A stretch of 64,000 nt of DNA, from the NCBI RefSeq assembly GCF_010686705.1, contig NZ_JAAGWY010000002.1:272001-336000 (forward strand). The letters run 5' to 3'. Source of the stretch: Leifsonia tongyongensis. GTDB taxonomy: Bacteria > Actinomycetota > Actinomycetes > Actinomycetales > Microbacteriaceae. Positions 3,638 to 6,987 of the stretch are shown here, piece after piece (position 1 is the stretch's first letter; the number at the start of each line of letters is the position of its first letter). Made by a program: the position numbers and the translations under genes. The notes beneath the pieces are model-generated. The model did no database searches and was not told where the DNA came from. It saw nothing but the letters and a program-made list of their open reading frames with translations.

Positions 3638-3712
3638 GCCGTCGGACGGGGTGTTTTCAGCCTCCACGCTAAACTGGGTCACGGACTGTGACGATTGAAG
3701 GAGACTGTTCAC

Positions 3713-5068
3713 GTGGCAGAAAAGCCGGAGAAGCGCGATGCGCAAGGTCAGGTCCTCGAATCCGAATCGACGGATGAGGCGGGTGAGTTCCACAGCGAAC
3801 TCCATCCTGACGACGGTGACGACCTCGCTGTCACGCTTCCGGAGAGCCTGAGCATCGTCGTCGACCTTCCGCCGGCGCCCACCCCGGAGATTCCCGAGGA
3901 CGAGATCGCAGTCGCGATCGACGATGTCCCGGTCAATCCCGGTTTCATCACCGGGAGCGAGCCGACGACGCGGTCGATGGCCATCGTCACGCCGCGTGCC
4001 TCGACCGGTCCGACCCCCACCATGACCGGTTCGACCGCGCTCGAGACTTCCGAGCACGGCCACCATGCGGATGCCTTCTCGCAGTCCCGGCGCGACCGGC
4101 TGCGCGGGGAGCACTCGACACAGCCCGAGCCGGCCGCCATGCTCACTGCCGACCGTCTGCTCGAGGTGAACCGCAAGACGCGTCCGGCGCCAGAGGGCGG
4201 CTGGTACCGTTTCCTGTACGCGATCAGCTTCCACACCGTGAACCTGGGCGACTCGAAGAAGGTGCGGGCGCGCAAGGAGCTGGACCACCGCATCCAGAAG
4301 CAGTTCGAGGGCGGCACGCGCTTCGTGCCGGTTCTCACCCGCAAGGGCGGCGTCGGCAAGACGACGGTCACGACGCTGCTGGGCATGGCCCTCGCCGATG
4401 CGCGGGAAGACCGGATCATCGCCGTCGATGCGAACCCCGACCGCGGCACCCTCTCGGAGCGCGTCCCGAAGCAGACCAGGGCGACCGTCAGGGATGTGGT
4501 GCACAAGGCCCCGAGCATCAACGGCTTCACCGACTTCTCGGCCCTCGTGTCGCGCGACGAGACCCGTCTCGACATCCTCGCGTCGGACACCGACCCGCTC
4601 CTGTCCGAGGCGTTCGACGAGAACGACTACAACGTCGTCGCCGACCTCGCGGCGCGGTTCTATTCCATCGTGCTCACCGACTGCGGCACCGGCATCGTCC
4701 ACTCGGTCATGCGTGCCACGCTGCAGCGCGCGGACTCGGTCGTCATCGTCTCCGGCGGCAGCGTGGACGAGGCGCGCCTCGCATCCGAGACGCTCACCTG
4801 GCTCGAGGCCAACGGCTACGGCGACCTCGTACGCAACGCGATCGTCGCCCTCAACACCGCGACGCAGGGCACGAATCTCGTGAAGCTCGACGAGATCGAG
4901 TCGCATTTCCGTTCCCGCGTGCGCGAGATCGTGCGCATCCCGTACGACCCGCAACTCGCGGCGGGGTCGGTCGTCTCGTACAAAGACCTGAAGCCGTTGA
5001 CGAAGGATGCGGCTCGCGTGCTCGCAGCCCTCGTGGTCGAGGGCCTGCCGGCCAATCGTGGCTCGTGA
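3713..5068 (+). CDS. MinD/ParA-like P-loop ATPase with a long disordered N-terminus
   Basis: The product (451 aa) starts at a GTG 9 nt after AAGGAG. Residues 1-150 or so are acidic, proline- and threonine-rich and probably unstructured. A conserved segment around WYRFLYAISFHTVNLGDSKK precedes the ATPase domain. Walker A is KGGVGKTT at residues 211-218, followed by VDANPDRGTLSERV and a later TDCGTG. This layout resembles actinobacterial MinD-like proteins such as those encoded near ESX/type VII secretion loci, but no secretion gene is present here. It lies 75 bp after pyc and overlaps the next gene, so the two may be cotranscribed. ATP-dependent dimerisation is expected; the cargo is unknown. 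Confidence 0.85.
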   Translation: MAEKPEKRDAQGQVLESESTDEAGEFHSELHPDDGDDLAVTLPESLSIVVDLPPAPTPEIPEDEIAVAIDDVPVNPGFITGSEPTTRSMAIVTPRASTGPTPTMTGSTALETSEHGHHADAFSQSRRDRLRGEHSTQPEPAAMLTADRLLEVNRKTRPAPEGGWYRFLYAISFHTVNLGDSKKVRARKELDHRIQKQFEGGTRFVPVLTRKGGVGKTTVTTLLGMALADAREDRIIAVDANPDRGTLSERVPKQTRATVRDVVHKAPSINGFTDFSALVSRDETRLDILASDTDPLLSEAFDENDYNVVADLAARFYSIVLTDCGTGIVHSVMRATLQRADSVVIVSGGSVDEARLASETLTWLEANGYGDLVRNAIVALNTATQGTNLVKLDEIESHFRSRVREIVRIPYDPQLAAGSVVSYKDLKPLTKDAARVLAALVVEGLPANRGS

Positions 5069-6479
5069 GCCTGCCCCAGGCGACGGGGCGGATGCGCGGA
5101 CGTTCGATCTGATCGTCGTCGGCGCGGGATCCGGCAACGCCCTGGTTGGGCCTGAATTCGCGCACTGGTCGGTGGCGCTCATCGATGACGGCGAGCGGTT
5201 CGGCGGCACCAGCCTGAACGCCGCATCCATTCCGAGCAAGATGTTCGTTCACGTGGCCGATGTCGCGGCCGCGGCGGAGGCCGGGTCGCGCCTCGGACTG
5301 TCCGCCTCCGTCGACCCCGTGGACTGGGCGCGCGTGCGCGACCGGATCTTCGCCCGCACCGACGCTGTCTCCGATGCAGGGCTGTTATTCCGCCAGGCGA
5401 CGTCGCCGAACGTGACGGTCTTCCGCGAGACGTTCGGCTTCGAAGACCAGCACACTCTGATGAGCGCGAGCGGGGTGCGCCTGCGGGCCGACCGCATCGT
5501 GGTCGCGGCCGGGTCGCGGCCCCGGCCGCTGCTCGCCGCCTACGACCCCGACCCGGCCATCCTCGATTCCGACGAGGTCATGCGCATCGAATCGCTTCCC
5601 GAATCGCTGGTCATCGTCGGGGGCGGACCGGTCGCGGTCGAGTTCGCCCACGTCTTCTCGTCCTTCGGTGTCGACGTGACGATCGTCACACGGTCGGAGC
5701 GGCTGCTCCGCGGACTCGACGTCGCGGTCTCCGAGCGATTCACCGCGTCTGCCGCCCAACGCTGGCGCCTGCTCACGGAGGAGCTCGTCGAAGCGATCGA
5801 CCGTGTCGGAGACCACCTCGCGGTGACGCTCGAGTCGGGAACTCAGCTCGAGACCGAGATCGTCCTGGTCGCCCAGGGCCGCATCCCGAACACCGACACC
5901 CTGGGAGCCGCCGCAGCCGGGTTCGACCTGTACAGCGACGGCCGGCTCGTCGTCGACAGCCGGCAGCGGATGCTCAGCCGCGGCGCCCCGGTGCCCGGGC
6001 TCTACGCCCTCGGCGACATCAGCTCGGCAACGAAACTGAAGCACGTCGCGAACCACGAGGCGCGGGTGGTCGCCCACAACATCCTGCACCCGGACGCCCC
6101 GATCGGCGGCGAACCGGGCCCGGTTCCCCACGCCATCTTCACCCGGCCGCAGATCGCGCACTTCGGGCTCACCGAAGCGGATGCGCTGGCCGACGGCATA
6201 GACGCGGTCGCCGTCACACAGGACTACCGGCACACCGCCTACGGCTGGGCGACCGAAGACGAGACCGGTTTCTGCACACTCGTCGTCGACCGTGACACGG
6301 GGGAACTCCTCGGGGCCCATATCATCGGGCCGGAGGCGAGCATCCTGATCCAGCCGCTCGTGCTCGCGGCCAGCTTCGGGATGTCGGTGCGCGGCCTCGC
6401 CCGAGGGCAGTACTGGCCGCATCCGGCCGCGAGCGAAGTCGTCGAGAACGCCCTGCTGAAGGCCGAGGAGGCCCTGTGA
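5058..6479 (+). CDS. Mycothione-reductase-like flavoprotein lacking both redox cysteines
   Basis: The product (473 aa) is a pyridine-nucleotide-disulfide-oxidoreductase fold protein: N-terminal FAD site (LIVVGAGSGNALVG), NAD(P) site (VIVGGGPVAVEFAHVF), second FAD motif (LYALGDISSATKLKHVANHE) and dimerisation domain. The start SGN, the phrase KHVANHEARVV and the tail ARGQYWPHPAASEVVENALL match mycothione reductase (Mtr) closely. The family motif GGTCLNxGCIPxK reads GGTSLNAASIPSK here, so Ser52 and Ser57 replace the redox pair. The base His455/Glu460 pair is kept. Normal disulfide reduction is therefore unlikely; a diaphorase, quinone-reductase or regulatory role is possible. GTG 5058 overlaps the previous stop by 11 nt. 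Confidence 0.85.
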   Translation: MAREPAPGDGADARTFDLIVVGAGSGNALVGPEFAHWSVALIDDGERFGGTSLNAASIPSKMFVHVADVAAAAEAGSRLGLSASVDPVDWARVRDRIFARTDAVSDAGLLFRQATSPNVTVFRETFGFEDQHTLMSASGVRLRADRIVVAAGSRPRPLLAAYDPDPAILDSDEVMRIESLPESLVIVGGGPVAVEFAHVFSSFGVDVTIVTRSERLLRGLDVAVSERFTASAAQRWRLLTEELVEAIDRVGDHLAVTLESGTQLETEIVLVAQGRIPNTDTLGAAAAGFDLYSDGRLVVDSRQRMLSRGAPVPGLYALGDISSATKLKHVANHEARVVAHNILHPDAPIGGEPGPVPHAIFTRPQIAHFGLTEADALADGIDAVAVTQDYRHTAYGWATEDETGFCTLVVDRDTGELLGAHIIGPEASILIQPLVLAASFGMSVRGLARGQYWPHPAASEVVENALLKAEEAL

Positions 6480-6495
6480 CCACGAAGGAAGACAC

Positions 6496-6987
6496 GTGAC
6501 CGAACGCCAGATCCGCCTTTTCGGAGACCCGGTGCTGAAGACCATGTCCGACCCGATCCGTTCGGTCGACGCCGGCGTGCGCGGGCTCGTCGAAGACCTG
6601 ATCGACAGTGTGCTGCCGCCCGGTCGCGCCGGGGTCGCCGCTCCCCAGATCGGTGTCAACCTTCGTGCGTTCAGCTACAACGTCGACGGCGACGTCGGCT
6701 ACATCCTCAATCCCGAGATCGTGGAGCTCTCGGGCGAACCCGAACCGGTCGACGAGGGGTGCCTGTCGGTGCCGGGACTGTGGTTCCCCACGATGCGTTA
6801 CCCATTCGCCCGGGTGACCGGCATCGACCTCGACGGCAAGCCGGTCGAGCTCTCCGGCACCGGCGTGATGGCCCAGGCGCTCCAGCACGAGACGGACCAC
6901 CTGAACGGCACGCTGTACCTCGACCGGCTCGACAAGGACAGCCGTCGCGAAGCGATGAAGCAGGTTCGCGCGAGCGACTGGTTTTAG
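6496..6987 (+). CDS. def: Peptide deformylase
   Basis: The product (163 aa) removes the formyl group from N-terminal formylmethionine of new proteins. All three family motifs are visible: GVAAPQIGV (motif 1, G-x-G-x-A-A-P-Q with Arg-Ala for part of the usual start), EGCLSVP with metal ligand Cys89, and QHETDHLNG with His131, Glu132 and His135. GTG 6496 follows the previous stop by 16 bp and has GAAGGAAG upstream, so it is probably cotranscribed with the flavoprotein gene. Length is normal for the actinobacterial short form. Confidence 0.95.
   Translation: MTERQIRLFGDPVLKTMSDPIRSVDAGVRGLVEDLIDSVLPPGRAGVAAPQIGVNLRAFSYNVDGDVGYILNPEIVELSGEPEPVDEGCLSVPGLWFPTMRYPFARVTGIDLDGKPVELSGTGVMAQALQHETDHLNGTLYLDRLDKDSRREAMKQVRASDWF

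Follow-up and report, generated by a model that had tools for sequence, protein, structure and literature searches.

The window analysed here is a 64,000-nucleotide stretch of the Leifsonia tongyongensis genome (Microbacteriaceae; contig NZ_JAAGWY010000002.1, positions 272,001 to 336,000). At 5058-6479 on the forward strand it encodes an orthologue of mycothione reductase (Mtr) in which both redox cysteines are replaced by serine, a natural double Cys-to-Ser replacement that was found in both species of the genus sampled. The sequence data show a true Mtr orthologue with intact cofactor motifs, in genomes missing mycothiol genes and under strong purifying selection, and they suggest that an old Mtr enzyme is now in a different redox job. 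With somewhat better than even confidence, we propose that mycothiol was lost and that the NADPH-flavin core of Mtr has been retained in a diaphorase-like role without cysteines.

A mycothione reductase orthologue without redox cysteines

Translation gives a frame without internal stop across 473 residues, in which the following features were located (window coordinates; alignment A1 has 48 rows, and the 114 rows and the genus-specific changes are defined below).

5058..6479, + strand: cysteine-less Mtr orthologue, 473 residues, GTG start, 11-base overlap with the upstream gene
5121..5138, + strand: motif GAGSGN for binding of flavin adenine dinucleotide (FAD), intact, residues 22-27
5202..5240, + strand: former redox motif GGTSLNAASIPSK, residues 49-61
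5211..5213, + strand: Ser52 (AGC), a position with Cys in all 114 other distinct Mtr rows
5226..5228, + strand: Ser57 (TCC), a position with Cys in all 114 other distinct Mtr rows
5325..5402, + strand: segment aligned to helix alpha-3 of R. erythropolis Mtr, holding 4 of the 17 genus-specific changes
5619..5636, + strand: NADPH-binding motif GGGPVA, residues 188-193, with Pro191 at the position of the R. erythropolis gate residue Phe178
5691..5693, + strand: Arg212, invariant in alignment A1, equivalent to Arg199 of R. erythropolis Mtr and a likely 2'-phosphate contact
6420..6437, + strand: His455...Glu460 pair, intact (HPAASE begins at 455)

Flavin disulfide reductases of the Mtr kind use a CXXXXC pair (PMC10910545) beside the FAD, where the window protein has SXXXXS. 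Its redox motif, GGTSLNAASIPSK, starts at Gly49, with Ser52 encoded by AGC and Ser57 by TCC, and its single cysteine, Cys406, lies outside that motif. The FAD and NADPH motifs and the 2'-phosphate arginine are present, as is the second Arg of RXXXXXR, a position at which L012, L013, L014 and the sister species have Thr, and both His455 and Glu460 are invariant across alignment A1. The original prediction, that serines encoded by AGC and TCC replace the Mtr cysteines and that the FAD and NAD(P) sites and the His455/Glu460 pair remain, is thus borne out by the translation, the motifs and the alignment. The best NCBIfam match of the protein is mycothione reductase NF005884 (572.3 bits, cut-off 501). 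It scores 513.3 bits against TIGR03452, below the cut-off of 635.65; this cut-off is uninformative because it is passed by 1 of 299 family genomes, compared with 38 that match at 1e-100.

An AlphaFold2 model of the window protein (mean pLDDT 93.0, pTM 0.90) indicates that the Mtr fold is kept, in agreement with the earlier expectation of an intact fold. In a structure search with this model, four Mtr chains topped the 50 listed chains (Z 46.9-48.4, root mean square deviation (rmsd) 1.3-1.5 A, 448-452 residues aligned), and a fifth Mtr structure, of 4.7 A resolution, followed with Z 43.6 and rmsd 1.7 A, tied with mercuric reductase 5x1y (43.3) and 1ebd (43.0). The five solved structures closest in sequence are likewise all Mtr, and the window protein is 45-47% identical to the five solved Mtrs (rmsd 1.3-1.7 A).

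The Ser/Ser pair is found in both species of the genus and in no other Mtr read

The genus sample comprised one genome from each of two species, the source genome of the window (G000) and a sister-species genome in one contig (G001). Two samples of the family Microbacteriaceae were used: 299 genomes, in which an Mtr search at E<=1e-60 gave 39 carriers, and 398 genomes, in which a search at 1e-100 gave 55 carriers and which includes the matches of the first sample except G157. A second, partly overlapping locus collection, with a few genes common to the family sample, consisted of the best 80 of at least 527 confirmed relatives. Conservation was counted over 114 distinct Cys-bearing Mtr rows, after removal of identical rows and before the addition of later loci; the three family Mtrs outside the neighbourhood described below (G015, G051 and G252) stay in these counts.

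When the motif was read in all 56 distinct family Mtr genes, both genes of the genus (2/2) had Ser/Ser and all others (54/54) had Cys/Cys, including G157, whose match was partial in the search but whose gene, when read, encodes a full-length Cys/Cys Mtr. Both cysteines were also present in 80/80 loci of the second collection, the best 80 of at least 527 relatives. The sister species has the motif GGASLNAASIPSK in a protein 90.5% identical to the window protein, and the codon of the second serine differs synonymously between the two species (TCC and TCG). Cysteines in a same-genus genome would have pointed to mutation or error, and G001 proved to be without both as well. Because the same change is present in a second, one-contig genome with a different synonymous codon, a sequencing or assembly error, for which we found no point in favour, has next to no chance of being the explanation, and a recent mutation is excluded too. 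Among the matches listed from the openly accessible journals searched, no title or abstract opening points to a cysteine-less Mtr.

Descent from a normal Mtr

The gene lies between two conserved neighbours, named like the other neighbours by eye from their translations.

3695..5068, + strand: ParA/MinD-like ATPase gene, upstream
6496..6987, + strand: peptide-deformylase-like gene (def), downstream

The order pyc-parA-Mtr-def-AMP synthetase-ROK-plsC-aroF is also present in the sister species, G091, G060, G009, G045, L040 and L048. A parA match is absent from the stretch read in G069 and G071 (the G069 contig ends there), the neighbourhoods of L042 and L047 are without parA and ROK, and pyc is the one neighbour retained beside Mtr in G016. 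In G015, G051 and G252, Mtr is outside the pyc-def neighbourhood and elsewhere in the tree. The overlap of the Mtr-like frame with the end of the ParA/MinD-like gene, 11 bases at window 5058-5068, suggests translational coupling.

In a 65-row tree of Mtr-like proteins, built as the original prediction had proposed, the two Ser/Ser proteins form one clade (100/100) nested in the Cys-bearing family clade, and their sister is the Cys-bearing protein of G091 (99/89), which is 72% identical to the window protein. Because of the ancestral pyc-parA-Mtr-def neighbourhood and this tree position, the serines are derived by vertical descent, and the window gene is a direct vertical descendant of a normal NADPH-dependent Mtr. 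Horizontal replacement of Mtr is ruled out by the same two lines of evidence.

Purifying selection and the location of change

Between the two species, the ratio of non-synonymous to synonymous substitution rates (dN/dS) of the Mtr gene is 0.093 at a dS of 0.59, with about 56 non-synonymous differences observed and about 428 expected at neutrality, and the ratio is 0.03-0.10 in eight neighbouring genes. Residues 46-66, which span the redox motif, have 9 synonymous and 2 non-synonymous differences. The Mtr-like gene is plainly under purifying selection; neutral decay is rejected by dN/dS, and neither species has stop codons or frameshifts in the gene. The identity of the window protein to the Mtr of VKM Ac-2854 (61.8%) is inside the range of Cys-bearing relatives, although lower than in three of the four (G091 64.5%, G069 68.0%, G060 63.1%, G009 56.9%).

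Ninety-three columns are at least 95% conserved in the 114 Cys rows. Both species depart at 52, 56, 57 and 60, all in the redox motif, and 87 of the 89 other conserved columns are unchanged in both; one further departure is confined to each species, at 51 in the sister and at 104 (Ile to Val) in the window protein. The location of the four shared departures in the redox motif is exceptional, though the number of departures is not.

We then defined as genus-specific any residue common to both species and present in at most 1 of the 114 other rows, which gave 17 (28, 52, 56, 57, 60, 92, 110, 111, 115, 135, 191, 253, 292, 325, 326, 392 and 399). Placed on R. erythropolis Mtr by alignment, four of these map to the redox motif, another four (92, 110, 111 and 115) to the pocket helix and one (191) to the nicotinamide gate. 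In R. erythropolis Mtr, helix alpha-3 (Trp77-Asp102) bounds the putative mycothione pocket on one side, and Phe178 is the aromatic residue that would gate the nicotinamide site (PMC10910545). The gate position has Ala, Val or Ser in 29 of the 114 other rows. Seven other Mtr pairs, examined as controls, had 0-11 residues of the genus-specific type; because these pairs are of differing divergence, the excess of 17 here is suggestive only.

The mycothiol pathway is largely missing

MshC was sought in the 299 family genomes with profile TIGR03447 at E<=1e-90, a threshold that is slightly loose because two named control genomes outside the actinobacteria also pass. It was matched in 174 genomes, in 168 of them over the curated cut-off. 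MshC status is known for the 39 Mtr carriers of this sample, to which the 17 Mtr-bearing genomes added from the larger sample do not belong. Thirty-six of the 39 have MshC, all at 3e-156 or better, and the sole two without an MshC candidate are G000 and G001, where nothing beyond CysS level was found (265 and 258 bits; three relatives have a lesser match of 253-257 bits). At the mshC site of G091, M20-peptidase-like, uppP-like and mshC genes are followed by HAD, pafB and pafC-like genes (assigned by eye), and G069 is alike without a uppP match. Both species of the genus have the M20, uppP, HAD, pafB and pafC matches at this site, without any mshC match at 1e-5.

The Mca model matched in neither G000 nor G001, compared with at least one match in 7/7 relatives, over the cut-off in 6/7. 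Weaker second Mca-model matches in the relatives, several of which adjoin an MshA-like gene, are probably MshB, for which no model was run. The best MshA match is partial in both species (139 and 136 bits, compared with 263-348 bits at full length in 7 relatives). Because there is no MshC, no Mca match and only a weak partial MshA, both species very probably have no mycothiol to recycle, judging from profile searches and, for mshC, from its conserved site as read in the two genomes. The expectation that mycothiol recycling would need another route is therefore not supported. A search for the mycothiol-dependent formaldehyde dehydrogenase at 1e-60 was uninformative: it matched in 2/7 genomes, in one of them above the cut-off, and the gene is missing from several relatives with MshC as well. 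MshA-D and Mca are described as encoded by all Clavibacter subspecies (PMC5358740).

Across the 299-genome sample, 125 genomes lack MshC at 1e-90, which suggests that loss is not rare in the family, and three of them carry Mtr: G000, G001 and G016. The last was rejected as a second mycothiol-less Mtr carrier because it has, besides a CysS-level match (3.4e-90), a diverged 301-bit MshC-like gene and a 297-bit MshA-like gene; a weak Mca-model match lies near the latter, and its Mtr has both cysteines. This Mtr (L133, in a 0.93 Mb genome) is a fast-evolving Cys/Cys protein with a branch length of 1.91, and the MshD-like match of the genome is under the cut-off. A paper that judged by mycothiol synthase held that mycothiol is never used in the streamlined genomes of the family; with its diverged MshA- and MshC-like genes, G016 may be an exception to this rule. 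Conversely, an Mtr match at 1e-60 is absent from 138 of the 174 genomes with MshC, the Mtr carriers by profile being similar in total (38/299 at 1e-100), and mycothiol makers without a dedicated reductase are thus common in the family. Outside it, an Mtr-like gene that retains both cysteines occurs in a record titled Streptomyces nymphaeiformis (L113:6001-7377), in contrast to a review according to which streptomycetes apparently lack mycothiol reductase (PMC4255298).

Other reductases and related systems

A second Mtr, for which a genome search had been proposed, was not found in G000. The Mtr profile at E<=1e-100 gave one match, and the other five matches are 28-30% identical, score 178-270 bits against NF005884 (cut-off 501) and match other models better. 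One of these paralogues is of the quinone-dehydrogenase type (724 bits, over the NF005883 cut-off). Two others, L005 and L007, come closest to RclA / hypothiocyanous-acid reductase models (scores of 462 and 481 bits, under the cut-off of 740), have their motif cysteines and are possible oxidant-defence reductases in a mycothiol-less genome.

The window protein shares with Mtr (NF005884/TIGR03452; PDB 8qcj, 8rx5) its genomic position as an orthologue, the FAD and NADPH motifs and the His-Glu pair, and it differs in the two serines, Ala for G56, Ser for T60 and Pro at the nicotinamide gate. A genome that makes mycothiol (MshA-D) is the expected host of an Mtr, whereas here MshC and other mycothiol genes are missing, with MshA weak and partial, no Mca match and an MshD-like gene present. 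The NAD(P)H-quinone dehydrogenases of NF005883, which we take to be the LpdA type, are of the same superfamily and not the same family (182.5 bits, cut-off 479). The SthA-type soluble transhydrogenases are likewise disulfide-reductase relatives without a disulfide pair. Engineered MerA C136A/C141A (4k7z) and RclA C43S (6kod) are, by their entry titles, proteins with redox cysteines removed and the fold kept; these are laboratory mutants, whereas the replacement in this genus is natural and double in both species.

A possible cysteine-free role and its alternatives

We infer the order of events, the loss of disulfide-reductase activity and the acceptor as follows. The genus would have lost mycothiol synthesis, leaving Mtr without its substrate, and the gene would have been kept for another job instead of being deleted, both cysteines becoming serines. 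NADPH would bind on the re side and reduce the FAD as in Mtr; without a disulfide, the reduced flavin (FADH2) would hand its electrons directly to an acceptor bound on the si side, where Ser52, Ser57 and the His455-Glu460 pair of the partner subunit lie. The protein would then be a two-electron, cysteine-free NADPH reductase, with a quinone or another electrophilic small molecule as acceptor. In glutathione and lipoamide reductases, Cys-to-Ser mutants no longer reduce disulfides but retain diaphorase-type activities. Because of these mutants, the transhydrogenase relatives and the kept His-Glu pair, we favour such a direct FADH2-to-acceptor reductase. That the protein is retained and functional without disulfide chemistry is highly likely; for diaphorase-like catalysis as such we would give even chances, and a diaphorase or quinone-reductase activity is plausible.

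An alternative, which we regard as unlikely, is that the protein is a non-catalytic pseudoenzyme that binds FAD and NADPH as a redox or cofactor sensor or as a structural partner. The loss of the catalytic cysteines with the fold and nucleotide motifs kept would fit such a role, as would the overlap with the ParA/MinD-like gene. However, the His455-Glu460 pair and nearly all conserved columns outside the redox motif are unchanged, and because the ParA-like neighbour is also present in Cys-bearing relatives, no new partnership is indicated. It is rather more doubtful that the cysteine-free flavin moves hydride between NADPH and NAD+ in convergence with the soluble transhydrogenases, whose hallmark is CXXXXT and of which one, from Streptomyces avermitilis, has SXXXXT (PMC9460512). 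The window protein has SXXXXS, scores 202.5 bits against NF003585 (cut-off 465) and keeps His455 where transhydrogenases have Tyr (YXXXXE; PMC9460512), which speaks against a plain transhydrogenase. Moreover, both species have a PntB-type membrane transhydrogenase subunit, and the C45A replacement in SthA reduced activity about tenfold and sent 37% of electrons to H2O2 (PMC9460512). A bolder reading, in which a natural SXXXXS branch has acquired new chemistry, the serine pair and His-Glu form an evolved acceptor site for a non-thiol substrate, the MshD-like acetyltransferase is co-recruited and parts of a dead thiol pathway are thereby rebuilt, seems to us improbable.

It is very unlikely that the gene is a decaying relic drifting towards loss. 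The substrate pathway is lost, the branch is long and absence of Mtr is the usual state without MshC (three carriers in 125 genomes), but the deficit of non-synonymous differences, the identity to outgroup Mtrs within the Cys-bearing range and the open frames of both species argue against decay. Slightly less credible still is that the enzyme has remained a disulfide reductase that works in another way, using for instance an external thiol or Cys406. The His-Glu pair and the conserved columns outside the redox motif would suit such an enzyme, yet Cys406 is the sole cysteine and not in the motif, flavoenzymes of this kind use the CXXXXC pair, and the mycothiol pathway is missing.

Several observations weigh against retention of the NADPH-flavin core for a diaphorase-like role after mycothiol loss. 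Five departures from conserved columns per protein are matched or exceeded elsewhere (8 in L133, 5 in L032 and in L039). The genus branch (0.39 + 0.05-0.09) is longer than those of its neighbours (G091 0.24, G069 0.30) and Mtr has the second-highest dN/dS among nine genes, so that selection may have been somewhat relaxed or the gene may have gone through a phase of change. With a quinone-dehydrogenase-type paralogue already present elsewhere in the genome, the need for a second diaphorase is not obvious. The absence of an MshC candidate (among 39 carriers) and of the redox cysteines (among 56 genes) coincide in this genus; because both losses are one tree event in two genomes, the link to mycothiol loss is a correlation of one. 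The MshA cut-off was passed by 0/9 genomes tested, MshC-bearing ones included, and the absence of MshA therefore rests on relative scores. Finally, both species retain an MshD-like gene over the TIGR03448 cut-off (214 and 203 bits).

This MshD-like gene (L157:1438-2370 in G000, L159:1438-2367 in G001) adjoins a polyphosphate-kinase-like gene (by eye) and has a dN/dS of 0.094; after Mtr, it is another orphan of this pathway that remains under selection.

Implications

For annotation, the case is a warning, because NF005884 scores the window protein over its cut-off though the organism is very probably without mycothiol. The conversion of a disulfide reductase into something else becomes testable with one purified protein and its Cys-bearing relative from G091. 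The genus thus offers a natural experiment on the fate of a dedicated thiol-recycling enzyme once its thiol disappears: in our sample, Mtr is otherwise absent without the pathway, whereas here the NADPH-flavin machine was kept and its redox motif rewritten.

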